26,812 nucleotides of DNA, taken from positions 1-26,812 of the IMG/VR virus record IMGVR_UViG_3300037840_000263. The stretch is one strand, 5' to 3'. Positions 80-26,045 of this stretch are shown piece after piece. Positions within the stretch are counted from its first letter, which is position 1; every line of letters starts with the position of its first letter. The stretch comes from a virus. The notes under the pieces are model-generated. The model was not told the DNA's origin and searched no databases. It was given only the letters and a program-made list of their open reading frames with translations. Both the position numbers and the translations under genes were made by a program.

Positions 80-730
80 GTGGCGGAGTTATGGAGGAGT
101 TATGCTGTTATTCTGTTGGTTATGGGAATACGGCGAGAGGGCAACGCTTCACAACTGGCGCGGGAATTAGGCGTAACTCCGCCCGCGATCACGCGGCGGC
201 TGGATAAAGGGGAGACAGTGGCTCAGATCCGGGCTGCGTTGTCGGACCCTAACCGGAAAAAGAACGGGATGGCACAGGGTAAGCAGGCAGCGCGAGTGGC
301 AAAGGTGTCTGGCTACACCCCCAGCCGCATCTTCATCCCCAAGCCCCCTACCCCTGTCTCTGTAGCACCTACGCTCGCAACCGTGTTCCAGCCGAAGCCA
401 GAGCAGGTTGCCCAGGCAAACGGGTTCAGTAACGGGTCAGCTCACACGAATGGCCAGTCCGTGGACCGGTCGGAGGCTGAGCGCCGGTTCGCTCTCGCCA
501 AAGCCCAGAAGGAAGAGATGCTGGTGGCGGAGCGGCAAGGGCTGGTGGTGGAATTTGAGACTGTGCGCCAGTACGTGGCTGGGATGATTGTCGATGCGCG
601 GAACCAGTTGCTAAGGCTGCCGTCGGAATTGTGTGATCGGTTGGGTGCGATGGGGGCGGGCGAGTGCCGCCAGTTGCTGGACCAGGAGATCAGGCAAGCG
701 CTAGGCAAGTTGAAGGAATTTGGGGGCTAG
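80..730 (+). CDS. phage terminase small subunit, Nu1-like
   Basis: Terminase small subunits bind the packaging site on phage DNA and hand it to the large subunit. The N-terminal part (residues about 23-50) looks like a helix-turn-helix: QLARELGVTPPAITRRLDKG. A Pro/Asn/Ser-rich linker follows (about 85-130). The C-terminal third has the Nu1-family pattern: a charged helix with AKAQKEE, then ERQGLVV, then a helix ending RNQLLRLPSEL. The given start is a GTG. An in-frame ATG at 122 would remove 14 hydrophobic residues, and neither has a clear ribosome site. The gene lies about 17 kb from the large subunit, whereas these two are usually adjacent. A non-terminase DNA-binding protein is the alternative. 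Confidence 0.7.
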   Translation: MAELWRSYAVILLVMGIRREGNASQLARELGVTPPAITRRLDKGETVAQIRAALSDPNRKKNGMAQGKQAARVAKVSGYTPSRIFIPKPPTPVSVAPTLATVFQPKPEQVAQANGFSNGSAHTNGQSVDRSEAERRFALAKAQKEEMLVAERQGLVVEFETVRQYVAGMIVDARNQLLRLPSELCDRLGAMGAGECRQLLDQEIRQALGKLKEFGG

Positions 731-7805: not shown

Positions 7806-8105
7806 CTACTCCCCCTTTCGATTAAACTTCGAGCAGATCGCGGCGGCTTCGCACCAGAGTTGATGCGTCACAACCATCACCAAAAATAAAATGAAACAGA
7901 CAAGTGCAATTAATAATAGTGGGGGCACGATCTGCATGAACAGCCATATCGGAAGGAACATGCGCTGATCTGGGAAATTCAAATCCCAAGAGTTCGGAGC
8001 CCACCAATACACAACAGACAGCGTGATAGAGCATATCCATGCGAGCGCCCCAATCCCCATCAGAAGCCCAACGAAGATGGAGCCGGTGCAGATGAGTTTT
8101 ATCAC
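7806..8105 (-). CDS. two-helix inner-membrane protein (possible holin)
   Basis: 99 aa from a GTG that overlaps the preceding stop as GTGA (8105-8102). Two hydrophobic segments are plain: about residues 5-35 (TGSIFVGLLMGIGALAWICS) and about 55-80 (LFMQIVPPLLLIALVCFILF). They are separated by a short Trp/Asp/Pro-containing loop, and a basic tail (SKFNRKGE) ends the protein. Size and topology would fit a two-helix holin, a small lysis protein that opens the inner membrane. However, no lysin is adjacent on this strand, so the role is only a guess. Confidence 0.5.
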   Translation of the reverse strand: MIKLICTGSIFVGLLMGIGALAWICSITLSVVYWWAPNSWDLNFPDQRMFLPIWLFMQIVPPLLLIALVCFILFLVMVVTHQLWCEAAAICSKFNRKGE

Positions 8106-8497
8106 GGCTTTGGTTCCTTGAACGTGCCGAGAATTGGAAGCCCCTGGTCGCCGTGCATTGTGTGTGCTTTTGTAGGCACCGAGCAATCGATCAGTGCTCC
8201 GTTGTGAACCTTCCTGAATCTCCCCGCTACTCCATCCAAATAAGGTCGTGAATTGCTTTCGCACGTGTCACATACCGACAAGTGGCCCTGCTCATCCGCG
8301 TACAGCATGGCGTAAAAGATAGCGCCATCCGGGAGGTCCTTAACGTACGGCGGCGGCAAGGGCTTTACCGAAAACCTAGGATCGCAAGCCAGAAGTTCAT
8401 CAGTGGTCATCGGCTTCGGCTTATTGGCGCACCCCGCAAGCACAATCAGCCCAGAGAAAGCAGCGAGCGCGGCGAAGAAGGTTCGGCGGCAGTTCAT
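8102..8497 (-). CDS. predicted lipoprotein, unknown function
   Basis: 131 aa with a type II signal peptide: basic start (MNCRRTF), hydrophobic core and the lipobox LAGC near residue 22. The mature part has a Cys pair (CDTCES) and a proline-rich stretch (KPLPPPYVKD). It overlaps the genes on both sides by four bases (ATGA upstream, GTGA downstream). Lysis-associated outer-membrane lipoproteins (o-spanins) are often Pro-rich and small, and the neighbour is a two-helix membrane protein, but this one is longer than usual. Function unknown. Confidence 0.55.
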   Translation of the reverse strand: MNCRRTFFAALAAFSGLIVLAGCANKPKPMTTDELLACDPRFSVKPLPPPYVKDLPDGAIFYAMLYADEQGHLSVCDTCESNSRPYLDGVAGRFRKVHNGALIDCSVPTKAHTMHGDQGLPILGTFKEPKP

Positions 8498-8925
8498 GGT
8501 TTCCCTTTCGAGCGCGCGGCGTCCAATAACCCAAGCTCTTTCGCGATTTCAAGTCCGCGTTTCTTATCCGCCTCAGTCAAGAGTTCATTGCTGATTATCA
8601 ATTCGCCGACCAACGCCCGCACTCGATCACGCTCGGTCTCGGCGTTGTCTCTGCCCATCACCAAAACCTGCAACACCTGAGCGAGCCAATCCTCAAGCGT
8701 CCGATCCCCGCGCTCGATGCCGGTGCCTGCGCAGGAGATGACAGCAGAGAGGGAGAATTCCAGACTTGCCCGCCCGTTCAACGCCTTCACAATCTGGAGA
8801 GCATCTGTTGCGGTGTGGCACTGGCATACCGGGCGATCTCCCTCGTACACATTGATTGGGACGTGATGGCCGACGCGCCATCGAGAAAGCTGGGGCTGCT
8901 CGGTGGGTTCCGGCGGGTTGATCAT
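8494..8925 (-). CDS. conserved phage hypothetical protein (small early-type)
   Basis: 143 aa. The N-terminal half has the pattern seen in many small phage proteins: WRVGHHVPINVYEGDRPVCQ, a CxC pair, then HTATDALQIVKALN. The C-terminal half is helical and charged. Its first 14 residues (MINPPEPTEQPQLS) are nearly the same as those of the gene at 9151-9333, so the 5' ends are duplicated. It overlaps both neighbours by ATGA. No biochemical role is known to me. Confidence 0.6.
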   Translation of the reverse strand: MINPPEPTEQPQLSRWRVGHHVPINVYEGDRPVCQCHTATDALQIVKALNGRASLEFSLSAVISCAGTGIERGDRTLEDWLAQVLQVLVMGRDNAETERDRVRALVGELIISNELLTEADKKRGLEIAKELGLLDAARSKGKP

Positions 8926-9170
8926 GATTTTATCTCCGGCACTTTACCGGTAAAAGTGCGAGCTGTTGAGGCGCAGGCGTGATAGCGAGTGTCCCGCAGC
9001 GCCTCGGCTAGGGAGGATTCGCGAGCGAGCGCCGCGCGGAGTTCGGCGATAGTCCACATGAAATCCTCACGTAGGTGCTCGTCAATCCATGCTATGCGGG
9101 CGACTGCTTCGATTCTCGCGAGCCGCTGCTCGGTGGATTCTGGCGTCAATTTACCGTCCGAAGGAATCAC
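8922..9170 (-). CDS. small helical phage protein, unknown
   Basis: 82 aa from a GTG at 9170-9168 with a good ribosome site (GGAGGT, 6 bases upstream). It overlaps the preceding gene by 20 bases and the following one by ATGA. The sequence is helical and charged (RLARIEAVARIAWIDEHLRE, then ELRAALARESSLAEALRDTR), with no recognisable motif. Such proteins are frequent in early phage operons. Confidence 0.5.
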   Translation of the reverse strand: MIPSDGKLTPESTEQRLARIEAVARIAWIDEHLREDFMWTIAELRAALARESSLAEALRDTRYHACASTARTFTGKVPEIKS

Positions 9171-9333
9171 AGTTGCACCTCCGACAATAAGTTATCTCGT
9201 ATTCTCCGCGATGTGCTTCGCGGCTATGTCCGCAACGGCAGGTATCGGCAGACTTCTTCAAAAGCAAACGCAATTGTCGTAACTCCTCTTGAGAAAGCTG
9301 AGGCTGCTCGATAGGTTCTGGTGGGTTGGTCAT
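9151..9333 (-). CDS. small zinc-ribbon-like protein
   Basis: 60 aa. The second half carries a likely metal site, CRCGHSREAH followed by CRRCNC, that is Cys/His pairs about 16 residues apart. The first 14 residues duplicate the start of the gene at 8494-8925. The ATG overlaps the preceding stop (ATGA at 9333-9330). Small single-ribbon proteins in phage operons usually act as protein or nucleic-acid binders. The partner is unknown. Confidence 0.55.
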   Translation of the reverse strand: MTNPPEPIEQPQLSQEELRQLRLLLKKSADTCRCGHSREAHRGEYEITYCRRCNCDSFGR

Positions 9334-9770
9334 GACTTGACTCCATCCAGGGCTTCTGCGGCCCGTCTAAAATCACGTGAATCGATGAGCGTTCTATCCG
9401 ATGCTGTCCCGCGACTGCAAGCAAGCTCATCCAGTTCGCAATCTGGACGATCCATCTTAGCGAATGGCCGCAGCGCCTCGGCGAGTTTATCGCGCTGAGC
9501 CAGTGTGATCTTGCCGCGTTCTAGTGCTGCATCGAGCACGACAGCCATCGCTCCTGGAGTATCGGCTCCCAACGCCTTCCATGCGGCGATTTCTTCGGCG
9601 TGCTCTTTGTCGCGCACTTCGATGGCAGCGGCAATGGCGTGTTTCAGCTTCCTGACGCAAACATCGCAAAGTCCATCGTCGGGTGATTCGCATTCTCCCG
9701 GCTCGATGTCAAAATAGAAGTTATCTCCTCCTTCTATTAGTGATTCGGCGATTTCCTTGGGGTCTTTCAT
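9330..9770 (-). CDS. conserved phage hypothetical protein with Cys cluster
   Basis: 146 aa. Residues about 26-42 hold Cys residues in a CES...CDVCVRK pattern. A helical section follows, and then a C-terminal motif of a type seen in many phage proteins (KLAEALRPFAKMD...DSRDFRRAAEALD). It overlaps the next gene by ATGA and starts three bases after the stop of the mini-gene upstream. Function unknown. Confidence 0.55.
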   Translation of the reverse strand: MKDPKEIAESLIEGGDNFYFDIEPGECESPDDGLCDVCVRKLKHAIAAAIEVRDKEHAEEIAAWKALGADTPGAMAVVLDAALERGKITLAQRDKLAEALRPFAKMDRPDCELDELACSRGTASDRTLIDSRDFRRAAEALDGVKS

Positions 9771-9773
9771 TGG

Positions 9774-9866
9774 TCAGCCTTCCTTGGTAGCGGCGCTGAT
9801 ATCGCTACAATCTTCGCTGTGGTAAACCACTGCGTTCGTCCATCTATTTAATATGTCGAAACTCAT
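9774..9866 (-). CDS. N-terminal remnant of a pentapeptide-repeat phage protein
   Basis: 30 aa (MSFDILNRWTNAVVYHSEDC...KEG). The opening ILNRWTNAVVY closely resembles the conserved N-terminus that precedes pentapeptide (A-N/D-L-x-x) repeats in phage proteins. Those proteins continue with an EAV/VKSGANL-type transition. Here a TGA stops the frame right after ATKEG, and no repeats follow before the next gene. The start is coupled by ATGA to the gene upstream. It is either a truncated relic or a shortened but still translated peptide. Confidence 0.5.
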   Translation of the reverse strand: MSFDILNRWTNAVVYHSEDCSDISAATKEG

Positions 9867-10015
9867 TTCGTCCCCCTTCGCGCCGACAGGGCGTGCTCGA
9901 TCCAGTAGCGTATCTGGGCTCCCATTGAGCGGGCGGGCTTTTGCGCTTTGCACCAGCGTTTGAAGCGGGCGAGTTCGGAGTCGGAGAGCCGTGCTTGGAA
10001 TTGGCGGAGTTTCAC
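9863..10015 (-). CDS. short ribbon-helix-helix-like or helical protein
   Basis: 50 aa, starting with a GTG that overlaps the upstream stop (GTGA) and ending in an ATGA with the next gene. The sequence VKLRQFQARLSDSELARFKR then MGAQIRYWIEHAL has the strand-helix-helix rhythm of small Arc/CopG-type DNA-binding proteins, with a basic C-terminus. The two-sided coupling makes it convincing as a gene. The DNA-binding role is inferred from the pattern only. Confidence 0.5.
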   Translation of the reverse strand: MKLRQFQARLSDSELARFKRWCKAQKPARSMGAQIRYWIEHALSARRGTK

Positions 10016-10410
10016 TGAATCACCTCAGCGTAGATCGCGGGAGCCTTCGCGCGAATCGCTTCGATCAACGCTCTGGCGGTTAATCGCTCGCCCTCGGCAT
10101 AGTCCATTGCCATCCTCAATTCGTGGGAGTTATTGCACTTAGTAAGCGCCTTAAATTCATCTAGTTCCATTTCGACCTCGTCTGCCCGGTCGCTATGTTC
10201 CCTAGCCTCGTTTTCCATATCAAGTGCATACTTCTGCGCCTCTCGCAGATCAGTGATGCGTTTCTTTTCGTCCTGCCTGAGTGGATCAATGCAGGCTGGA
10301 ACTTCTTTCGAGCAGTAGCTATCATCCCCAAAATGCGCCCAAGCCGCTTTTCTGGACCGAAATACTTCATCGCAATGAAAGCAGCGCCATGCCTTGCGTC
10401 TAGATCGCAT
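10012..10410 (-). CDS. phage zinc-finger protein, first gene of the - strand operon
   Basis: 132 aa. The N-terminus (WRCFHCDEVFRSRKAAWAHF, then a C and an ACIDP) has the C-x2-C...H...C arrangement of a small phage zinc-finger family. In that family the finger is followed by a long helix, as here (about residues 48-85, DLREAQKYALDMENEAREHS). It is the promoter-proximal gene of the leftward operon and is divergent from the gene at 10544. It is probably an early regulator or accessory protein, with the exact role unknown. Confidence 0.6.
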   Translation of the reverse strand: MRSRRKAWRCFHCDEVFRSRKAAWAHFGDDSYCSKEVPACIDPLRQDEKKRITDLREAQKYALDMENEAREHSDRADEVEMELDEFKALTKCNNSHELRMAMDYAEGERLTARALIEAIRAKAPAIYAEVIQ

Positions 10411-13149: not shown

Positions 13150-13374
13150 ATTTCGTGCCAAGCGCTGACCGGATTAAGCGCCAGGAATTAATGGGCCGAA
13201 TGGTTCCTCCCTTGATAAGACGGAGCTGGACACGGAGGCATCCGTAAACGTTAGTTTGTTAGTCCTCATGTCGTGGAATCAAGAACCTGATCGGGATCGA
13301 AAGGTAATACCCGTGAGGCACGAATAGAATTTAAGGTTTGGCAATCAAGGCTGGCGGGAATATTGGAGGATCGC
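13150..13374 (+). other. intergenic stretch, nothing convincing
   Basis: 225 bases between two small genes. It contains two weak open frames: a 30-aa frame from a GTG at 13155 and a 19-aa frame at 13268-13327 starting MSWNQEPDRD. Neither has a ribosome site. A short inverted repeat (GCGCT...AGCGC) lies near 13162. I see no promoter of good quality. Confidence 0.4.
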
Positions 13375-13623
13375 GTGATAATTGATCTATTAACCCTGAA
13401 CGGCGTGGTTGATGTATTCGTACGGCGTGATGGGTCCGTCCTCAACGTGCATGTCGTGCTTGACGATCTGGAGTTTTCAAAGTTTGAGAAGGTTATCCAA
13501 AAAGAGCTGGAACTGACAGAGAAATTTCCACACTTGCGGTTCCGATTCAATGTGTCTCCGAAACTCGAAGCCGCGCCTTGGGTCCATGCCCTTTTGCCAA
13601 CGTCGGAAATGGGCCACGCCTGA
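13375..13623 (+). CDS. small alpha/beta protein, unknown
   Basis: 82 aa from a GTG at 13375 preceded by GGAGGA (13365-13370). A TTG at 13363 is an alternative. The sequence alternates strands and a helix: VIIDLLTLNGVVDVFVRRDG, SVLNVHVVLDDL, then FSKFEKVIQKELELTEKF, and a final strand LRFRFNV. This looks like a compact two-layer fold. There are no Cys or catalytic motifs. An overlapping - strand frame is judged a shadow. Function unknown. Confidence 0.45.
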   Translation: MIIDLLTLNGVVDVFVRRDGSVLNVHVVLDDLEFSKFEKVIQKELELTEKFPHLRFRFNVSPKLEAAPWVHALLPTSEMGHA

Positions 13624-13645
13624 TCAGTTTAGAAAGAGGGAATCG

Positions 13646-13804
13646 ATGAAACTTCTCGCACTGTTCGTTTTCGCCGCGCTCGCCTTCGCCGAAGTTCCTG
13701 ATTGCGCTACCTGCAAGATCAACGTGCCGGAGCCTAGCACATGGGCTTTGATGGCGCTGGGCTTGGGTGGGATTGCGGTGGTGGGGTGGAGGAAGAGGCG
13801 GTAG
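13646..13804 (+). CDS. mini PEP-CTERM protein (exosortase substrate)
   Basis: 52 aa made almost only of two sorting signals. The first is a Sec signal peptide (MKLLALFVFAALAFAE). The second is a complete PEP-CTERM tail: VPEPSTW, a membrane segment (ALMALGLGGIAVVGW) and the basic end RKRR. Between them lie about ten residues with a CATC pair. In bacteria PEP-CTERM proteins are recognised and cleaved by the membrane protease-transpeptidase exosortase (EpsH/XrtA family) and are linked to exopolysaccharide and biofilm formation. No exosortase is seen here, so the host must supply it. The ATG has a GAGGG ribosome site. The protein is remarkably short, and a phage-borne copy is unusual. Confidence 0.75.
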   Translation: MKLLALFVFAALAFAEVPDCATCKINVPEPSTWALMALGLGGIAVVGWRKRR

Positions 13805-13819
13805 AGGGAGGATGGCGGG

Positions 13820-13990
13820 ATGACGCGAGAGCAGATCATCGATTATAAACAGGCGGCAATTAGGACGCGAGATCGCATGGATGTTAATACAGTGGGTGCG
13901 GCCGCTGTTGTAGGCGCTCAAACCAATGTACTCTTATGCGAAATTCTGCTCGAACTGAAAGAGCAAGGATTGAGTCGGAACTCCGTATGA
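13820..13990 (+). CDS. small helical phage protein, unknown
   Basis: 56 aa (MTREQIIDYKQAAIRTRDRM ... LLCEILLELKEQ). It is amphipathic and helical with one Cys. The ATG follows a purine-rich stretch (GGGAGGATGGCGGG) that can serve as a ribosome site. Its stop overlaps the next start as ATGA (13987-13990). Small proteins of this form are frequent in phage accessory operons. Not recognised. Confidence 0.5.
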   Translation: MTREQIIDYKQAAIRTRDRMDVNTVGAAAVVGAQTNVLLCEILLELKEQGLSRNSV

Positions 13991-14256
13991 CCCGCCCCCT
14001 CTCGCTGGCGCTTCTGCTCCTCGCCCTCTCGGGCTGCTCCCGGCCCAAGCCAGATTATTCTTGGGCGCGTGTTCCGTGCCCAAAAAATGCCTCATGTTCC
14101 ATCTGGATTACCTGGTGGACGGACAACAAGGTTGGGGACTGCCTGTACGATCCTCATCGCCCAGAGGGAAGTGAATATGCCGCGCGAGTGGTAGCCGTTA
14201 ATCCACATGACGGGCATCAAATAGCCACATTATCCTTCGACGGGAAATGCAAATGA
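13987..14256 (+). CDS. predicted lipoprotein A
   Basis: 89 aa. The type II signal peptide is clear: MTRPLSLALLLLALSGCSRP, with lipobox LSGC and the acylated Cys at residue 17. The mature part (about 73 aa) has three further Cys and a Trp cluster (WITWWTD). The ATG was chosen because it overlaps the upstream stop and starts the signal peptide. A second lipoprotein follows directly. Two adjacent small lipoproteins would suit an outer-membrane complex, or exclusion or lysis roles, but no family is recognised. Confidence 0.6.
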   Translation: MTRPLSLALLLLALSGCSRPKPDYSWARVPCPKNASCSIWITWWTDNKVGDCLYDPHRPEGSEYAARVVAVNPHDGHQIATLSFDGKCK

Positions 14257-14471
14257 AAAGAGCTATGGTAATCCTCTTCTGTCTCCTAACCGCCTGCTCC
14301 CGGCCTCCATCAACCCAGCCGCTCCCCTCGCCCGCCGAATGCACCACCTTCAACATGAAGCTGGATGGAAGCCTCAACCCGATTCAAGGGAGCGACCAGT
14401 ATTTGGTGACGATCAGCGGGAAGGGCGAAGGGGCAGCGCAGATTACGGTGTGTTTTAAGGGGAAGCAGTGA
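14253..14471 (+). CDS. predicted lipoprotein B
   Basis: 72 aa starting MKRAMVILFCLLTACSRPPS. The lipobox is LTAC, and a Pro-rich linker follows (PPSTQPLPSPAE). A short beta-rich domain ends the protein (YLVTISGKGEGAAQITVCF). The ATG at 14253 overlaps the previous stop (ATGA), and an ATG six bases earlier is an alternative. Length and the Pro-rich linker resemble small outer-membrane spanin subunits, yet no inner-membrane partner lies next to it. Treat it as a lipoprotein of unknown role. Confidence 0.55.
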   Translation: MKRAMVILFCLLTACSRPPSTQPLPSPAECTTFNMKLDGSLNPIQGSDQYLVTISGKGEGAAQITVCFKGKQ

Positions 14472-14716
14472 AGCCGATACCGTTCGCCGATCTTCACAAT
14501 CTTGAAGAGGACAAGCGCATCGATCTGATCGGGCATCGTGCGGCAGACCACAAGAAGATCGTCGGATTCATGGTGGATCGTGACGGCGAGGATCGCTCCA
14601 AGGGCGACCGCTACATCGCGAAACTGAAAGAGAAGTTCCCGATGCTCACAGTGATGTGGCGTGGGGATGGTCCGGTCGATGCTGTCGAGACGATCAAGGT
14701 AGGAGTGGTGAACTGA
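14468..14716 (+). CDS. conserved small phage protein, unknown
   Basis: 82 aa from a GTG overlapping the preceding stop (GTGA). The sequence reads as a small alpha/beta protein: NLEEDKRIDLIGHRAADHKK, VGFMVDRDG, then IAKLKEKFPMLTVMWRGDGP and a final strand ETIKVGVV. There are no Cys and no membrane segments. The TGA overlaps the next ATG (TGATG). Function unknown. Confidence 0.5.
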   Translation: MKPIPFADLHNLEEDKRIDLIGHRAADHKKIVGFMVDRDGEDRSKGDRYIAKLKEKFPMLTVMWRGDGPVDAVETIKVGVVN

Positions 14717-15734: not shown

Positions 15735-16219
15735 AACTCGCTTCCTTGCTCCTCCTCTCCTCCTACGCCTTTGCTCAGTCCCCGCCTGCGCCTGCAAGTG
15801 CGCCGCTTCAAAACTGGGCCGGCCTCGGCACGCAATACGGCACCTCCGACTCGCCACACTTCTCGGGATGGGCTGCTCTCGCCCTGCCGCTGTCACAGTC
15901 CCAGTCGATCTACAGCTATACGGAATACATGGCGATTCCGGTCAAGGGCAAGCCTCCAACTACATCGACCACCACTGGCCTGGCAACAATTCTCCGCACC
16001 ATCCACATCGGCGACAAGACGCTCTACATCCTTGGGCTGGCGACGGCCGGCGCTGCGGTATCCAGCACGGCGACCACGGGATCGTTCCAGGGCGGGGGCG
16101 GAGCGTTCCTGCGTTGGACGAGCGGTTTTACGGTTGAGGTGGTGGTGCAGCAGTCCAAAGCGGCTGGGCCGGCGAAGCCGGAAGTGCTCGCTGGGGTAGG
16201 GTTCGCTTGGGGGAAATAA
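15731..16219 (+). CDS. secreted beta-rich protein (possible small outer-membrane barrel)
   Basis: 162 aa with a signal peptide (MKLASLLLLSSYAFAQ) and a Pro/Ala linker. A series of alternating hydrophobic strands follows: GWAALALPLSQSQSIYSYTE, TLYILGLATAGAAV, GGGAFLRWTSGFTVEVVV, and a C-terminal EVLAGVGFAWGK. Strand density and the Gly/aromatic pattern would fit a small outer-membrane beta-barrel or an exported beta-sandwich. A final aromatic residue, usual in barrels, is missing. Both ends overlap neighbours (ATGA, TAATG), tying it to the lipase that follows. Confidence 0.5.
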   Translation: MKLASLLLLSSYAFAQSPPAPASAPLQNWAGLGTQYGTSDSPHFSGWAALALPLSQSQSIYSYTEYMAIPVKGKPPTTSTTTGLATILRTIHIGDKTLYILGLATAGAAVSSTATTGSFQGGGGAFLRWTSGFTVEVVVQQSKAAGPAKPEVLAGVGFAWGK

Positions 16220-16920
16220 TGCTCAAGGATTCTGAGATCGCCCAGCTCGCTCACCAAATATACGTCGGTCCTGTCGGGTTCACAAAATACTTCGCCGAAG
16301 AAGGTTTCGGCATCTGCTGCGCGGTCCTGCTCAACCCGGATGAGAATATTGTTGTGTTCAGAGGCACCGTGCCGACCGAACTTCAGAACTGGATTCAGGA
16401 TCTTTTAGCATACCCTGCTCCGTACAAACACCAAACCTTTGGGCCGATCCATCTGGGTGCATTCTGCGGCCTGCCGAATGTGATGGAGGAGATAGTCCCG
16501 CTGCTCAACTTGGCCGTCAAGACCACATTCTGCGGCCATTCTCTCGGGTCGCAGCGTGCGGCGCTCGCCGGCGCAATCATGCTCGATGAATACCAGCCTG
16601 ATCCATCGCTGATCCGCGTTGTCGGCATGGCTGGGCCTGCTCCTGGATTCGACCAGTTCCTTCAGTTCATGTCAAAAGTGGAATGGCGGAATTATAGAAA
16701 CGCGGCCGGTGTATACGGAGATCCTGTCCCGCTTTTAGCCTTTAACCTTCCGCCAGCGTTCGCGTACAAAAACATCGGACTGACGCACGTAACCGCGCAG
16801 CCTGGTGGGTTCTTGGACCTGAAAGACGCCCTGCTCGTGGACTGGCACAATAGTTCTCTGTATGTGAAGGGTGTAGCGGCCCTCGAAGCAGCCACACCGG
16901 TACACGGAAAGGTAGGGTAG
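16219..16920 (+). CDS. class 3 lipase-like alpha/beta hydrolase
   Basis: 233 aa with the hallmarks of a class 3 lipase. VVFRGT (about residue 45) forms the oxyanion region. GHSLG has the nucleophile Ser108 and is followed by the helix SQRAALAGAI. GDPVP supplies the acid (Asp168), and DWHNSSLY supplies a His in the usual place (His210). These enzymes hydrolyse ester bonds of acylglycerols or phospholipids. No signal peptide is present, so it would need lysis or a holin to reach the envelope. It is coupled to the secreted beta-rich protein by TAATG. In a phage it could help break the outer membrane or act on host lipids. Lipase fold confident; substrate unknown. Confidence 0.8.
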   Translation: MLKDSEIAQLAHQIYVGPVGFTKYFAEEGFGICCAVLLNPDENIVVFRGTVPTELQNWIQDLLAYPAPYKHQTFGPIHLGAFCGLPNVMEEIVPLLNLAVKTTFCGHSLGSQRAALAGAIMLDEYQPDPSLIRVVGMAGPAPGFDQFLQFMSKVEWRNYRNAAGVYGDPVPLLAFNLPPAFAYKNIGLTHVTAQPGGFLDLKDALLVDWHNSSLYVKGVAALEAATPVHGKVG

Positions 16921-17514: not shown

Positions 17515-17886
17515 ATGATTTACTACAGCCAGTCGAAAGTACTTTTCACTCTGCCGGATGGGAGTACATCCCCCGCTCTTTATGCAGGCAATGGCCAATG
17601 GAAGAATGACCCAGCCTCTCAGTGCGTCACGAACCACGGACCCTTGCCGCAAGGCATCTACACGATGCTCCCTATCCAAGTACTTCCACATTTGGGGCCA
17701 GCCATCGTCCTAATCCCGAATCCGGGGAACTCCATGTGCGGACGTGGTGGCTTTAGGATTCACGGCATAGACACAGCGTTTCCACTTGACTCTTCCCTCG
17801 GCTGTATCTGCGATGAACCGTCCCCTCGCCAGCTTTTGAATAGCTGGATTCTCAAAGGCGAGAATCAGCTTACAGTGATAGCTTAG
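17515..17886 (+). CDS. DUF2778/Tlde1-like L,D-transpeptidase-fold enzyme (possible peptidoglycan-active protein)
   Basis: 123 aa. The order of motifs fits the DUF2778 family. The start has an LPDGS...YAGNGQWKNDPA stretch, followed by HGPLPQGIYT and IPNPGNSMCGRGGFRIHG (His83). The SSLGCI motif (Cys97) comes later. In this family, which includes the secreted effector Tlde1, His and Cys form the active site, and the enzymes cut or exchange peptide cross-links of peptidoglycan. No signal peptide or membrane segment is visible. It has its own promoter and sits right before the terminase, so a lysis or cell-wall-entry role is plausible but unproven. Confidence 0.65.
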   Translation: MIYYSQSKVLFTLPDGSTSPALYAGNGQWKNDPASQCVTNHGPLPQGIYTMLPIQVLPHLGPAIVLIPNPGNSMCGRGGFRIHGIDTAFPLDSSLGCICDEPSPRQLLNSWILKGENQLTVIA

Positions 17887-17904: not shown

Positions 17905-20043
17905 TTGCAACTCACCGAAGCATCAGCCACCAGCCAGCATCCCCATTTCCACTCCGTACACACCACAGCTTCCTTGGCTGCTGAATTCGGCCAACTCTGG
18001 CTCCCGCCCGAACGCCTCTCTTTGTCCCAGTGGGTGGAAGCCAACATCACTCTCTCCTCTGAATATGCTGCTCGCACTGGCAATATGCGGTTGTTTGGAT
18101 GGCAGCGAGAAGTGTTTGATGCCTTCACCGACCCTAATGTTAGAGAGATTGTGGTGTGTTCATCCACACAAATGCTGAAAACAATAGCCTTACAGTGTAT
18201 TTTGGCTTACGTCATTGTCTGCGAGCCCGCCCCCATCCTCCTCGTGCAACCCAACGACGATGATGCCCGTACCTTCTCCAAGGAAAGGCTCAGCCCGATG
18301 ATCCGGGACAATGCCTGTCTCCGGGGCCTGCTCTCCGACTCAACCCACGACGGCAAAAACACCATCGTCGGCAAGGTCTTCCCCGGCGGCTCGCTCTCCA
18401 TCGTCGGCTCCATCTCCCCTTCCAACCTCGCCCGCCGCTCCATCTGCTATCTGCTCTGTGACGAGGTTGATCTCTACCCGCTCTCCGCTAGCAAGGGGGA
18501 TCTCAAGGTAGGCAACCCGATTGGGCTGGCGGAAAAGCGCATGGCTACATACGGCAGCCGCGCCAAGGGCGTATATGTCTGCTCTCCAACCGTGGCTGGC
18601 CGCTCCGTCATTCTCGACCGGTATGCGGCTAGCGACCAGCGCAAGCCCTGGGTCCAGTGCTGGTCCTGTGGCGAGTGGCAGATTCTCAAGTGGCGGGATG
18701 CCAAAGGCTATCGCGTGCGGTGGGATTCCTCCCTTGCCCCCAAGCTCCAGGCAACCACAGCAGTGTATTACTGCCCGCACTGTGACTCCCCCTGGTCCGA
18801 CCTACAGCGTCATGCCGCCTGTGAACGCGCCCAGTGGCGGGCCGAATCCGACTTCACCGGCATCGCCGGCTTCTGGATCTCCCACTTGTATTCCCCCTGG
18901 CCGCGCCAGAACATCTCCTCCCTCGCCGCCGAGTTCATCGAAGCGGGCCACGACCGCAACAAGCTCCAGGTGTTTATCAACACGTCCCTCGCCGAAGGCT
19001 GGCAAGATGAAGGAGAGACGCCCGACCACGAGCTTTTATATAGCCGCCGGGAGGAGTACCCGCATGGGGATGAGGCAATCGTTCCTGCCCGTGGCTTATT
19101 CCTGACCGCCGCCGTGGACGTGCAGGACAACCCTCCCCGGCTTGAGGTGGAGGTGAAGGCTTGGGGCCGCAACCGCGAGAACTGGTCCATCGCCTATCTC
19201 GTGATCCAGTGCCGGTCGGAGGACGGGGAACTCTTGCCAGTCTCTTCCAAGCAATTATGGGATCGGCTGGACGCCGAAGTCCTGGCCCGTAACTGGCCGC
19301 ATGAGTCCGGCCACACCCTCCCGATTCGTATCATGTGCATTGACACCGGCTCCCGCCCCAAGCCTGTCTACGAGTTCGCCCGCACCCACCCCCAACTCAA
19401 CTACAACCAAGCCACTGGCAACCTGACCCCTTACGCCGTCCGCACCGTAGTTCCTACCAAAGGCGTGAGCACCGACACCCTCCGTATCATATCGTCAGTG
19501 TCTAAGGAAGACGCGGCCCGTAAGCGCCAGGGCGTCCGCATCATCGGCATCGGCACGATTTGCGCCAAGCAGGAAATCTTTGACGCGCTTAGGGCATTGA
19601 AGCCATCCCCAGACGGGACATTGTCCGGCTCCCCCGTCCCCGGCTGCTACCACTTCCCGCAATACGCCATGCCTTATTTTGAAGGGCTATCCGCCGAAGT
19701 ACGGATCGTGAAACCGGACGGGCGGGTGGTGTATGAGAAGCGAGGGGCTAGGAATGAGCCGATCGATTTAGCAGTCTATAACCGGGCGGCGGCGGCGCTG
19801 GCCGGCATTGACAGGCTGCCTGAGTCCGGCTGGCAGAAACTCGAAGCCAGCCTTGGCGTGTTACCATTAATCGTGCGGTCCCCGTCGCCAGGGGCGGAGG
19901 CAGCGCCTGTCGTTACCCCCGCCCCGCCCGTCCCGCAACCGCCACAACCCGCCATCACCACCACCTCCCCCGCTTTACGCCAGCAACAAGGCCAGCCAAC
20001 CTCCGTCCTCAACCGTTCTATCCGAGGCCGCTTCTTCCGCTAG
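17905..20043 (+). CDS. phage terminase large subunit, GpA family
   Basis: 712 aa; the packaging motor ATPase and nuclease. Motifs in order: a Trp-rich lead (LSLSQWVEANITLSSEYAAR) and the adenine-binding region WQREV. The Walker A position reads STQMLKT (about 87-93), with Leu where Gly is usual. Walker B follows as CYLLCDEVD (about 181-189). A zinc finger comes next (CWSCGEW and YYCPHCDSPW). The nuclease domain starts near AAVDVQDNPPRLEVEVKAWG and continues with MCIDTGSRPKPVYEF. A Pro-rich tail ends the protein. The start is a TTG at 17905, because the next in-frame ATG (at residue 61) would lose part of the domain. It is followed by gpW and portal as in lambda. Confidence 0.88.
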   Translation: MQLTEASATSQHPHFHSVHTTASLAAEFGQLWLPPERLSLSQWVEANITLSSEYAARTGNMRLFGWQREVFDAFTDPNVREIVVCSSTQMLKTIALQCILAYVIVCEPAPILLVQPNDDDARTFSKERLSPMIRDNACLRGLLSDSTHDGKNTIVGKVFPGGSLSIVGSISPSNLARRSICYLLCDEVDLYPLSASKGDLKVGNPIGLAEKRMATYGSRAKGVYVCSPTVAGRSVILDRYAASDQRKPWVQCWSCGEWQILKWRDAKGYRVRWDSSLAPKLQATTAVYYCPHCDSPWSDLQRHAACERAQWRAESDFTGIAGFWISHLYSPWPRQNISSLAAEFIEAGHDRNKLQVFINTSLAEGWQDEGETPDHELLYSRREEYPHGDEAIVPARGLFLTAAVDVQDNPPRLEVEVKAWGRNRENWSIAYLVIQCRSEDGELLPVSSKQLWDRLDAEVLARNWPHESGHTLPIRIMCIDTGSRPKPVYEFARTHPQLNYNQATGNLTPYAVRTVVPTKGVSTDTLRIISSVSKEDAARKRQGVRIIGIGTICAKQEIFDALRALKPSPDGTLSGSPVPGCYHFPQYAMPYFEGLSAEVRIVKPDGRVVYEKRGARNEPIDLAVYNRAAAALAGIDRLPESGWQKLEASLGVLPLIVRSPSPGAEAAPVVTPAPPVPQPPQPAITTTSPALRQQQGQPTSVLNRSIRGRFFR

Positions 20044-20079: not shown

Positions 20080-20340
20080 ATGGCCGCACCGCCAACCCCT
20101 GTCCCCGAGTTCACCTACGCCGACCTGCTGACTATCGACGCGGCTATCAAGTCCGGCGCAAGCGAGGTCCGGTTTCAGGACCGCACCGTGCGCTATCGCT
20201 CGACCGCCGACATGCTGATCGCCCGCAACCTGATCTGGAATTACCTGAACCCAGGCAAGGTCGTGCGCCAGCAACGGATTTCCACGCGGCAGGGGTTTGG
20301 GGGCGGAGGATGTGGCCAGGGGTGGCCGTATGGATACTAG
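20080..20340 (+). CDS. gpW-like head-tail joining protein
   Basis: 86 aa. The sequence FTYADLLTIDAAIKSGASEV then RFQDRTVRYRSTADMLIARN matches the gpW pattern: one helix, a beta hairpin with R-x-V-x-Y-R, and a second helix. In lambda this protein sits in the portal vertex and completes the head so that the tail can join. ATG at 20080 chosen over a GTG at 20062 because it begins a natural sequence. It overlaps the portal gene by 11 bases. Confidence 0.75.
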   Translation: MAAPPTPVPEFTYADLLTIDAAIKSGASEVRFQDRTVRYRSTADMLIARNLIWNYLNPGKVVRQQRISTRQGFGGGGCGQGWPYGY

Positions 20341-21994
20341 CCTCCAGCGTCTATCTTTGGCTGGTCGCCTGCGTGCACGTCTCGCTTCCTTCATTGCCCC
20401 CGGCCATGGCCCGACCGCTGTAGGTCCTACGCCAACCATCCGGGCTACATCTGGCGGCAACCCGTATGACGCCGGATCTACCGGGCGCAGAATGTGGGGA
20501 TTTCAGCCTTCGCGCCTCGGTCCTACCACGAGCCTGTGGTCTACCCATGACCTGATCGTCGCCCGCTGCCGCGACTTGGTCCGCAACAATCCATGGGCGT
20601 CTAGTGCTATCGACAACTTCGAGTCCCAAGTCATTGGCAACGGCATCCGCCCGCGATGGAACATCCAAGACCCGGTCCTTAAAGCCAAAGTCGAGTTGGA
20701 GTTCGGGCGTTGGGCCAAATCCTCCGCCTGCGATTCCGCTGGCCTGCTCGACTTCTACGGTATCCAGTGCCTTGCCGCCCGTGAAGTATTTGAAGCAGGC
20801 GAAGTCCTGTCCCGCTTCTACGTCCGACCTCCCTCCTGGAACTTGCGTGTCCCTCTCCAGCTACAGCTTATCGAATCCGAACAGCTCCCCATCTTCCGCA
20901 ACATCATTAGCGGCGGCAGCGATGGCATGATCCAGATGCCGCTCGGTAACACCGTTCGCGTAGGCATCGAGTTCGACAAGTGGGGGCGTCGGGTAGCCTA
21001 CCAGCTCTACAAAGAGAACCCCGGCGAGACGATGTTCTTCCCGCTGGAGGGTATCCAGTTCATGCGGGTGCCCGCCGTCGACATGCTGCATGTCTACAAG
21101 CCCAAGCGCGCCGGCCAGTTGCGGGGTGAGCCGCACATGACCAACGTACTCGCCCTGCTCTACGAACTGGAGCAGTACACCGACGCCAGCCTTGTCAAGA
21201 AGAAGATCCAGACGATGTTCGCCTACATCTTCGAGAAGCCCGCCCCTGATGGACCGGACCTATTGCCGGTGGATCAGGTGAATGGACCGCCCTCCGACTT
21301 CTCCAACCCCCAGACCAACTACGCCGATTTCGAGCCGGGGACCTGCATCAACACCTTGCCTGGCGAGACGGTCAAATTCCCCCCCCTCCCGCAGGAGAAC
21401 GATTTCCAATCCTTCGTCTCAGTGGAACTCCACAAGTTAGCCATTGGCGTAGGAGCTACGTACGAGCAGCTAACTGGGGATCTTAAAGGCGTGAACTACT
21501 CTAGCATCCGGGCTGGCCTGCTCGACTTCCGCCGCAAGTGCGAACAGTTCCAACGCAACATCATCATCCGCCAGTTCTGCCACCCAGTCGTATGCCGGTG
21601 GCTATTCGAGGCGGTGTTTGCCGGAGTCATCTCGCTACCGGGTTACGCCAGCAACCCGTCCCAGTACGAGGACATCGCCTGGTCTACCCCGCGCTGGGAT
21701 TGGGTTGATCCGCTGAAGGATGCCCAAGCCGCCCAGCAACAAGTCCGGTCAGGGTTCACATCGCGGGAGGCTATTGTGGCAGAGTTGGGTGAGGACGTAG
21801 CCACCATCGACGCCCAGACCACCGCTGATAACAAGCGGGCCGATGAGCTAGGGCTGATACACGATACAGACCCACGCAAGGTGCTGATCGGGCGTGAGAG
21901 CAATCCTGTGAACCCATCCCCAGGAGATCCAAGCGGGGAGCAGGTTGAGGAGCAGGAGGAAGAAGCGGGTGAGGAGCAGGAGGCGGCGAGTTAG
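20330..21994 (+). CDS. phage portal protein, lambda (gpB) family
   Basis: 554 aa from the ATG at 20330. The N-terminal region has the family signature: NPYDAGSTGRRMWGF, then ARCRDLVRNNPWASSAIDNF and QVIGNGIRP. The core strands around FEAGEVLSRFYVRP and the conserved GVGATYEQLTGDLKGVNYSS follow. The end is a Glu/Gln-rich acidic tail. Portal proteins form the dodecameric DNA gate of the head. The gene ends one base before the 49-aa frame that follows. A palindrome copy lies in its early codons, encoding VGPTP. Confidence 0.9.
   Translation: MDTSLQRLSLAGRLRARLASFIAPGHGPTAVGPTPTIRATSGGNPYDAGSTGRRMWGFQPSRLGPTTSLWSTHDLIVARCRDLVRNNPWASSAIDNFESQVIGNGIRPRWNIQDPVLKAKVELEFGRWAKSSACDSAGLLDFYGIQCLAAREVFEAGEVLSRFYVRPPSWNLRVPLQLQLIESEQLPIFRNIISGGSDGMIQMPLGNTVRVGIEFDKWGRRVAYQLYKENPGETMFFPLEGIQFMRVPAVDMLHVYKPKRAGQLRGEPHMTNVLALLYELEQYTDASLVKKKIQTMFAYIFEKPAPDGPDLLPVDQVNGPPSDFSNPQTNYADFEPGTCINTLPGETVKFPPLPQENDFQSFVSVELHKLAIGVGATYEQLTGDLKGVNYSSIRAGLLDFRRKCEQFQRNIIIRQFCHPVVCRWLFEAVFAGVISLPGYASNPSQYEDIAWSTPRWDWVDPLKDAQAAQQQVRSGFTSREAIVAELGEDVATIDAQTTADNKRADELGLIHDTDPRKVLIGRESNPVNPSPGDPSGEQVEEQEEEAGEEQEAAS
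20420..20430. repeat. dispersed palindrome GTAGGWCCTAC, copy 4
   Basis: GTAGGTCCTAC preceded by T and followed by GCC, in the 5' part of the portal gene, where it encodes VGPT. The in-frame presence suggests either neutral insertion in the poorly conserved N-terminus or a selected DNA site. Confidence 0.7.
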
Positions 21995-23630: not shown

Positions 23631-23771
23631 TCGGTCAGGTAGGGCTCGCTAAGGCAGTGCGCCGGTTGGGTGTGGCACGGTCCGGTCCGGTGGGCTGAGG
23701 CTTGTCACGGTTTGCTGTGGTATGGTCTTCTAAATCGTTGACCACTTGATTTGTGTTACCATCCTGCTCAG

Positions 23772-26045
23772 ATGAAGTCTCATCTGGCACATCTCAGTCA
23801 ACTGGCTTTCAACTCTCCGCTGGCAATCTTGCCGTCTCATGCGGAGACTGTTTTATCCGCTCTAGGTCCCCGGCTTGCCATTGACACAGACGGCCTCGCC
23901 GAATTACTTAAATCAGGCGTTCTGTCCGCTGATGGTCAATTCTACTCCTGGGACCAGAACGCTCCCAAGCAACTGCAATCCGGTGACAATGAAAAGCCTT
24001 ACGTACTTACCGAAAGCGGCATAGCCGTTGTTGACATTGTCGGTACGTTGATGGAGTCCGGCGGTTGGTTGAGCGCTTTATCTGGTTGTAGTTCCTACGA
24101 AGGCATCCGGGCGGCGGTAGATTGCGCGATGGATGACCCAGATGTGCGTGGTATCTTGTTTAGTATCAACAGCCCAGGCGGATCGACGCACGGACTTTTT
24201 GACTTGACGGATCACCTCTACTCCCTCCGTGGCCAGAAACCGACTTGCGCCGTCGCCAAAAACTGCGCCGCTTCCGCCGCCTACGCTATCGCCTCCTGCG
24301 CCGATAACATCTGGCTCACCCGCACCGCCGGCGTCGGCAGCATCGGCGTATTCGCCCTGCACACCGACCAATCTGGGGCAGACAAGAAAGAAGGGATGGC
24401 GTATAAGTACGTCAAATCCCGGCGTAAGAAGACAGACGGCAATCCGCACGAGCCTCTGTCCAAATCCGCCGAGGCCGACATGCAGGCAGAGGTTGACCGG
24501 CAGGATGGCTTGTTCGTCTCGCTCGCCGCCCGCAACCGGGGCGTGTCGCAATCTGAGATCGGGGACCTTGAAGCAGCCATGTTATTCGCCGACTCCGCCG
24601 TCCCCCTGCTGGCCGACTATGTAGGCACCTTCGAGGACGCCATCGCCGCTATCACTGGACAAGTGACTGGGGATCGTGATAGTCTACTTTCAACAAGTAG
24701 TAACAAAGGCTCAAGGCGCGGTAAAGGCCAAGGCCGATTAAAGGCAAGCACACAAGAAGCAGCAGCAGATGGCCAGGAAACTGGTGAAGAGTTAGAGGAT
24801 GCTGATAACGTGATGCCTGCAATCCCGCCTCACAAAACGAAGACCTCATCCGCTGCCTGGGACGGGCCGGAGAACAAGAAGCGTCTTAGCAAAGGCAAGG
24901 ATGCGGCCTACTACCGGTCGGCATATGCGTTCGTGAAGCCGGATGGCGACCCCAAGGTTAAGGCCAGTTACACGTTCATCCACCACGAGGTCGGGGCGAA
25001 TGGCGACGTGGGTGCCGCCAATATCAAGGGCTGTCAATCCGGCATTGCGATCTTGAATGGCGGGCGCACCGGCACAGTATTGAAAGGTGCCGACCGCAAG
25101 GGCACGTATCGACATTTAAGTGCCCATTTGGAAGATGCTGGCGAGACGCCCTCGCCCCTGAAGAGTTACAAGACTTACCTTGCTGGCGTAGTGGCCTACG
25201 CCGCCGAAACTGAGAACCAACCTCTGGCTGCTCAAGCCAGTTCCATCCTCGCCGCTTTGCAAGTAGCGGATGAAAATTCCTCTGATGATGAAGGAGATTC
25301 TGCCATGGCTAAGATCCTCGACCTAGACGCCGTCAAGCCCGACGAAAAAGACGATGACAAGAAAGAGGCCAAAGGTGGCAAGAAGGGCGATGGCTACATG
25401 AAGGGTAAGGGCAAGGAAGAGGACGAAGAGGAAGACGACGAGGAAGACGACGAGGACGAGGACAAGAAGAAAGCCTCGGCCAAAAAAGAAGACAAAGAAA
25501 ACGACGAGGGAGATGACAAGGAAGACGAAGAGGATGAAGACGACGAAGAGGACGAAGACAAGAAGAAGGCTACTAAAGGCAAGGGCAGCAAGAAAGGGAA
25601 ACGGGCCGACGTGACACAGATCACTGTTGACGGCCGCGCCGAATCTCAGGCTATTGCCGAACTCTGCACCCTCGCCGGCTGCCCGGAGAAAGCCGCCAAG
25701 TACATCCTCGACGGACGCTCTGCCTCCCAGGTCCGCAAGTTCCTGATGGACAAGCGTGCCCGCGCCTCCATGGAATCTACCGTGGACGCCAGTTTCGGCC
25801 TGCCCGCCGGCGGCGACAACCCGGCCCTCAAAATCTTCCAGCAGGCGCGGGTGTCGGTCGCCCAGAACAAGGACCTGCCGCCGTCCGCTGCCTTTGAAGC
25901 TGCCATCCGCCAGAACCCGGCCCTTTACGAAGCGGCCCGCGACATGCGGGAGACCGCCGCGCTGACCACCAACAACCGCCGTCAGTACGCCTCCATCTGC
26001 CGGTCGCAGTTTGCCGCGATGGGGCTCTCGGTCGGCGGACAGTAA
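23772..26045 (+). CDS. prohead protease (S49/SppA family) fused to a WDG-type domain and a scaffold-like region
   Basis: 757 aa from the ATG at 23772; a TTG at 23751 is an alternative. Residues about 85-300 are an S49 protease as in lambda gpC: ILFSINSPGGSTHGLFDLTD, then NCAASAAYAIAS with the likely nucleophile Ser168, then AGVGSIGVF. The Lys region VKSRRKKTDGNPHEPLS contains the probable partner of the Ser-Lys dyad. A second domain (about 355-480; SSAAWDGPENKKRL ... YRHLSAHLEDAGETPSPLKS) resembles the C-terminal domain attached to many prohead proteases. The last third is a very acidic D/E/K stretch and a helical end. These enzymes cut scaffold and capsid proteins during head maturation. A nested start lies inside (see 25305). 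Confidence 0.82.
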   Translation: MKSHLAHLSQLAFNSPLAILPSHAETVLSALGPRLAIDTDGLAELLKSGVLSADGQFYSWDQNAPKQLQSGDNEKPYVLTESGIAVVDIVGTLMESGGWLSALSGCSSYEGIRAAVDCAMDDPDVRGILFSINSPGGSTHGLFDLTDHLYSLRGQKPTCAVAKNCAASAAYAIASCADNIWLTRTAGVGSIGVFALHTDQSGADKKEGMAYKYVKSRRKKTDGNPHEPLSKSAEADMQAEVDRQDGLFVSLAARNRGVSQSEIGDLEAAMLFADSAVPLLADYVGTFEDAIAAITGQVTGDRDSLLSTSSNKGSRRGKGQGRLKASTQEAAADGQETGEELEDADNVMPAIPPHKTKTSSAAWDGPENKKRLSKGKDAAYYRSAYAFVKPDGDPKVKASYTFIHHEVGANGDVGAANIKGCQSGIAILNGGRTGTVLKGADRKGTYRHLSAHLEDAGETPSPLKSYKTYLAGVVAYAAETENQPLAAQASSILAALQVADENSSDDEGDSAMAKILDLDAVKPDEKDDDKKEAKGGKKGDGYMKGKGKEEDEEEDDEEDDEDEDKKKASAKKEDKENDEGDDKEDEEDEDDEEDEDKKKATKGKGSKKGKRADVTQITVDGRAESQAIAELCTLAGCPEKAAKYILDGRSASQVRKFLMDKRARASMESTVDASFGLPAGGDNPALKIFQQARVSVAQNKDLPPSAAFEAAIRQNPALYEAARDMRETAALTTNNRRQYASICRSQFAAMGLSVGGQ
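25305..26045 (+). CDS. nested in-frame scaffold protein (lambda Nu3-like arrangement)
   Basis: An ATG at 25305 lies in the frame of the protease gene and has a textbook ribosome site (AAGGAG at 25291-25296, 8 bases upstream). That is much better than the one of the full gene. It would give a 246-aa protein: a short lead MAKILDLDAVKPDEK, about 85 residues of D/E/K low complexity, then a helical C-terminal part (AELCTLAGCPEKAAKYILDG and later AFEAAIRQNPALYEAARDMR). In lambda the scaffold Nu3 is made from an internal start in gene C in just this way. The arrangement here is inferred from sequence. Confidence 0.65.
   Translation: MAKILDLDAVKPDEKDDDKKEAKGGKKGDGYMKGKGKEEDEEEDDEEDDEDEDKKKASAKKEDKENDEGDDKEDEEDEDDEEDEDKKKATKGKGSKKGKRADVTQITVDGRAESQAIAELCTLAGCPEKAAKYILDGRSASQVRKFLMDKRARASMESTVDASFGLPAGGDNPALKIFQQARVSVAQNKDLPPSAAFEAAIRQNPALYEAARDMRETAALTTNNRRQYASICRSQFAAMGLSVGGQ

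Follow-up and report, generated by a model that had tools for sequence, protein, structure and literature searches.

The window, by which we mean the whole stretch of DNA analyzed here, corresponds to one linear virus record in IMG/VR, 26,812 bases long and probably a fragment. It carries an open reading frame of 52 amino acids at exactly 13646-13804 (plus strand, stop codon included), with the translation MKLLALFVFAALAFAEVPDCATCKINVPEPSTWALMALGLGGIAVVGWRKRR followed by the stop, which we refer to as the mini gene. The features on which its interpretation depends are as follows:

80-730, plus strand: terminase small subunit (TerS; phrog_57, E=1.5e-16)
13363-14716, plus strand: compact co-directed cluster of small genes holding the mini gene (ORF list)
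13635-13640, plus strand: Shine-Dalgarno-like AGAGGG, 5 nt upstream of the ATG of the mini gene (direct sequence reading)
13646-13804, plus strand: mini PEP-CTERM gene, 52 aa (ORF, PF07589, TIGR02595)
13646-13690, plus strand: putative Sec-type signal peptide MKLLALFVFAALAFA, likely cut after AFA (direct sequence reading; -3,-1 rule)
13691-13726, plus strand: passenger EVPDCATCKINV, 12 residues, containing CATC (direct sequence reading)
13724-13801, plus strand: PEP-CTERM sorting domain, with VPEPSTW, hydrophobic span and RKRR at the extreme C-terminus (PF07589, TIGR02595)
17905-20043, plus strand: terminase large subunit (TerL), GpA type (PF05876, PF20454, phrog_15)
20297-21994, plus strand: lambda-family portal protein (PF05136, TIGR01539)
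23751-26045, plus strand: S49-type head maturation protease (PF01343, phrog_53)

PEP-CTERM exosortase substrates are described by PF07589 and TIGR02595 (Haft et al. 2006, PMC1569441). From N- to C-terminus, the product of the mini gene consists of MKLLALFVFAALAFA, then EVPDCATCKINV, then PEPSTWALMALGLGGIAVVGWRKRR. Residues 27-52 of 52 match PF07589 with E=1e-9 and 38.5 bits (cutoff 20.7), and TIGR02595 scores 28.3 bits (cutoff 16), in agreement with the complete PEP-CTERM described in the initial annotation: the PEP motif, the hydrophobic span and the basic cluster are all present above the curated cutoffs, with the domain at the extreme C-terminus. In size the protein falls short of other members, which usually have a distinct passenger domain, a trait typical of the family but not strictly defining. 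Read directly, the N-terminus shows a clear n-, h- and c-region with a likely cut site between AFA and E, in keeping with the signal peptide of the initial annotation; its passenger of "about ten residues" with CATC comes to 12 (E16-V27) if signal peptidase cuts after AFA. Assignment as MYXO-CTERM (TIGR03901) was considered and rejected, as the score is 17.0 bits against a cutoff of 20 and the motif has no invariant cysteine before the span. The mini protein matches no PHROGs family.

As TerS lies on one side of the mini gene and TerL, portal and protease lie on the other, the gene is inside phage DNA rather than in a host flank, and it is a phage gene. The initial claim that it is phage-borne thus stands, and the objection that the contig might be chromosomal DNA is not borne out. 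The cluster at 13363-14716 comprises genes for 86 aa, the PEP mini, 56 aa, lipoprotein-like proteins of 89 and 72 aa, and 82 aa; the next gene starts 15 nt past the stop of the mini gene, and the small genes after that overlap stop to start. The packing is operon-like, and the mini gene is probably co-transcribed with these neighbors, on the strand that also carries the head genes. ORF 13987-14256 gives a weak LPAM_1 match, below cutoff. No exosortase gene was found in the window's virus record. We also note that the 17 kb between the TerS and TerL genes hold tail-fibre-like and many small cargo-like genes, including a class 3 lipase-like protein (16207-16920; PF01764, phrog_21992) and, just upstream of TerL, a Tlde1 / L,D-transpeptidase-like protein (17515-17886; PF10908, 49 bits), a candidate wall-acting phage gene. 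A block of small genes at 7806-10410 runs on the minus strand within this otherwise plus-strand region, and its 8102-8497 frame has a lipoprotein-like start.

Searches of viral contigs, GenBank phages and genomes gave either no homologue of the 52-aa protein or matches to its C-terminus only, and none for its N-terminal half. The best genome matches cover only the sorting signal, and are nearly all ordinary proteins of at least 200 aa, mostly from Burkholderiales. For TerL, the best GenBank phage matches are Bordetella phages at 36.5% identity, identity within a sample of 398 Pseudomonadota is at most 40%, and there was no match in 240 Verrucomicrobiota at E 1e-80, nor in an exact-peptide search of genome contigs. 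The AFAQ-like signal peptides of neighboring ORFs are reminiscent of Acidobacteriota.

The claim that the protein is unusually small is well founded, as chromosomal PEP-CTERM open frames in nine genomes span 175-3042 aa among the about 155 best-scoring matches listed, against 95 aa stop-to-stop (52 from the ATG) for the mini gene. Looking for further short PEP-CTERM proteins in viral contigs, as suggested at the outset, we obtained no second mini of the same layout: among 2.9 million viral contigs, the pattern MK, 20-30 residues and PEPxTW gave no second true PEP-CTERM mini, and 30-40 residues gave no further one, both scans being confined to frames that begin with MK and carry PEPxTW rather than PEPxx[FLY]. 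A short frame in L248 was rejected as a mini, since it forms the terminal part of a longer ORF that is disrupted. The general survey did yield one mini of 75 aa (L052:805-1032, minus strand), on a 369-kb jumbo phage contig (IMGVR_UViG_3300045971_000577) with a terminase and a T4-type portal (E 3e-107). Like the 52-aa protein, it is phage-borne and combines a putative signal peptide, a two-cysteine passenger and a PEP-CTERM; unlike it, it has a longer passenger and stands in tandem with a directly adjoining 259-aa PEP-CTERM gene, the pair spanning L052:805-1815 (minus strand). Beyond the sorting signals the two proteins are dissimilar, and their passengers cannot be aligned. A third, weak PEP-CTERM gene lies at about 148.7 kb of the jumbo contig.

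The 52-aa mini is unusual in size, but PEP-CTERM genes in general are no rarity among phages. A scan of viral contigs for VPEPxTWA found at least 119 stretches, nearly all in plausible PEP-CTERM ORFs, in a survey selected on motif and among contigs of which some may be host DNA (suspect are those records that have 3-5 PEP-CTERM copies). Fifty large records (49 and the window) all score above the Pfam cutoff, mostly with one PEP-CTERM gene each; 18 carry a phrog_2 terminase, and none of the 50 has an exosortase, which fits reliance on the enzyme of the host. At 16 loci the PEP-CTERM gene has structural-module gene clusters on both flanks, which include major head protein (phrog_9953), portal (phrog_1216) and terminase (phrog_2). 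The QIEVFDN family, with 28 IMG/VR loci, 25 distinct sequences and at least two different gene neighborhoods, has a median pairwise dN/dS of 0.13 over 288 pairs, and is under purifying selection; this value, together with the recurrence of such genes, indicates that phages keep them. Like the 52-aa mini, this family is a phage-encoded PEP-CTERM without exosortase; unlike it, it is about 215 aa long, has a conserved passenger, is under purifying selection and is unrelated in sequence. A search of 289 Alphaproteobacteria genomes, run without a positive control, gave no member of the family. We note, in addition, that in many related phage contigs (L008, L051, L071, L090, L091, L097 and others) a PEP-CTERM gene of this QIEVFDN family is inserted between the major head protein gene and a conserved portal-like gene that has no PHROG match.

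A PEP-CTERM C-terminal probe found no match among 50,697 GenBank phage records, the probe being short and of limited sensitivity, although it does work, as 16 plasmids matched. Literature searches gave no description of PEP-CTERM proteins in phages, in line with the initial annotation, which knew of no described phage examples; as biology, however, the case is not unique, since many viruses in IMG/VR have such genes. One virome study mentions 13 transferred proteins, all belonging to a family whose domain is a putative exosortase interaction domain (PMC11003980). The mini gene, together with the larger proteins bearing the same tag in numerous other uncultured viruses, suggests that phages exploit a host surface-sorting pathway hitherto unlinked to them, and the recurrent class of phage PEP-CTERM genes is a broader lead than the mini gene and probably a more important one.

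Our preferred reading, to which we assign a probability of about one half, is that the mini gene is a phage cargo gene whose product serves the host exosortase as a minimal substrate. Based on what is known of the family (PMC1569441, PMC12188702), the product would be exported by Sec, signal peptidase would remove residues 1-15, and the C-terminal helix would anchor what is left to the inner membrane, RKRR lying on the inner side. Family knowledge likewise predicts that the host exosortase would recognize the PEP-CTERM and process the protein to a two-cysteine peptide of about 12 residues; what exosortase attaches or releases is itself still uncertain (PMC12188702). Since there is almost no passenger, the function should lie in the sorting signals themselves or in the short di-cysteine peptide. 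The initial interpretation is supported in part: competition for exosortase or decoration of the surface would suit this anatomy. In the former case, the likeliest benefit would be that the mini protein occupies exosortase and lowers the display of those host PEP-CTERM proteins that keep exopolysaccharide attached to the cell; phage release could become easier, or adsorption could change. This decoy role, on its own, is speculative and we advance it tentatively; competition is slightly favored over a displayed peptide, given intact sorting signals and a minimal passenger. The more general proposition that phages of exosortase-bearing bacteria commonly exploit host sorting, with the mini protein as a bare substrate and natural exosortase inhibitor, we consider doubtful.

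The minimal-substrate reading draws on the complete PEP-CTERM, the putative signal peptide, the ribosome-binding site and the location between TerS and TerL, as well as on the lack of exosortase in all 50 virus records, recurrent phage PEP-CTERM genes, some inside head-gene modules, and the independent 75-aa mini. In Nostoc, moreover, loss of exosortase abolishes biofilm formation and adhesion to polysaccharide (PMC12188702). Against it, the searches gave no whole-protein homologue, the host exosortase is putative, and the sigma-54 site of many chromosomal PEP-CTERM genes is not seen near the mini gene, matches being no commoner than chance.

The foremost alternative, though an unlikely one, is that processing by exosortase displays the short di-cysteine peptide as an effector at the surface of the cell or in the matrix, where CATC would form disulfides or bind metal; the peptide may alter adsorption of other phages. 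CATC and the polar stretch of the passenger are consistent with this, as are the two passenger cysteines of the jumbo-phage mini; twelve residues are, however, too few to fold alone, the passengers of the two minis do not align, and the shared cysteines may be coincidence. In other phages, the conserved PEP-CTERM proteins carry passengers of full size, which implies display in those phages and, for those proteins, favors display over a decoy role. We regard it as improbable that the gene is instead a relic, now neutral, of a full-size host-derived PEP-CTERM gene with its middle deleted and only signal peptide and C-terminus left. Its singleton status, with no homologue of the same layout found, and a C-terminus resembling ordinary Burkholderiales PEP-CTERM proteins would fit such an origin, yet both sorting signals, the ribosome-binding site and the tight packing in the cluster are all intact, and phage genomes tend to lose useless DNA.

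Much less probable still is another membrane role, as a holin- or spanin-like lysis factor whose C-terminus merely resembles a PEP-CTERM. Two hydrophobic segments, the adjoining lipoprotein-like ORFs and the Tlde1/L,D-transpeptidase-like gene further on at 17515 would suit lysis, but the PEP-CTERM models score strongly, the order VPEPSTW, span and RKRR is exact, and no holin family match appears in Pfam, NCBIfam or PHROGs. Finally, a spurious, untranslated frame can be set aside as exceedingly improbable: the frame has 52 codons only, a longer upstream start is available, and its codon-usage score is weakly positive (+3.5; other five frames -18.5, -6.8, -8.7, -21.8 and +3.6, one antisense frame thus scoring equally), which is weak support given so short a gene, but the window contains the layout ATGAAR-N60-90-PEP[ASGT]TW a single time, against 0/100 dinucleotide-preserving shuffles, and the model scores, ribosome-binding site and tight packing all argue for a real gene.

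The mini product consists almost only of the export and surface-processing tags of biofilm-forming bacteria. Exosortase biochemistry is poorly known, and a natural substrate of 52 residues would be a convenient probe. The PEP-CTERM genes of many uncultured phages, some of them located among structural genes and subject to purifying selection, would extend the range of pathways that phages exploit to protein sorting, with consequences for the biology of biofilms and flocs.

In comparison with known PEP-CTERM substrates, the mini protein has a putative signal peptide and shares the C-terminal PEP motif, the hydrophobic span and the basic tail at the extreme C-terminus, but differs in being phage-encoded with a passenger of about 12 residues. 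Its gene lies in a compact phage cluster without a nearby sigma-54-type site, whereas known PEP-CTERM genes stand alone as operons of one gene behind a long upstream region, and many chromosomal ones have such a site upstream. A further known system is the PExPT-CTERM model TIGR04200 (length 57), which describes a very small exosortase substrate, the target of XrtJ. The window has no match to it even at E 10, and the mini gene is not next to an exosortase; nevertheless, as TIGR04200 illustrates, tiny exosortase substrates exist as a kind.
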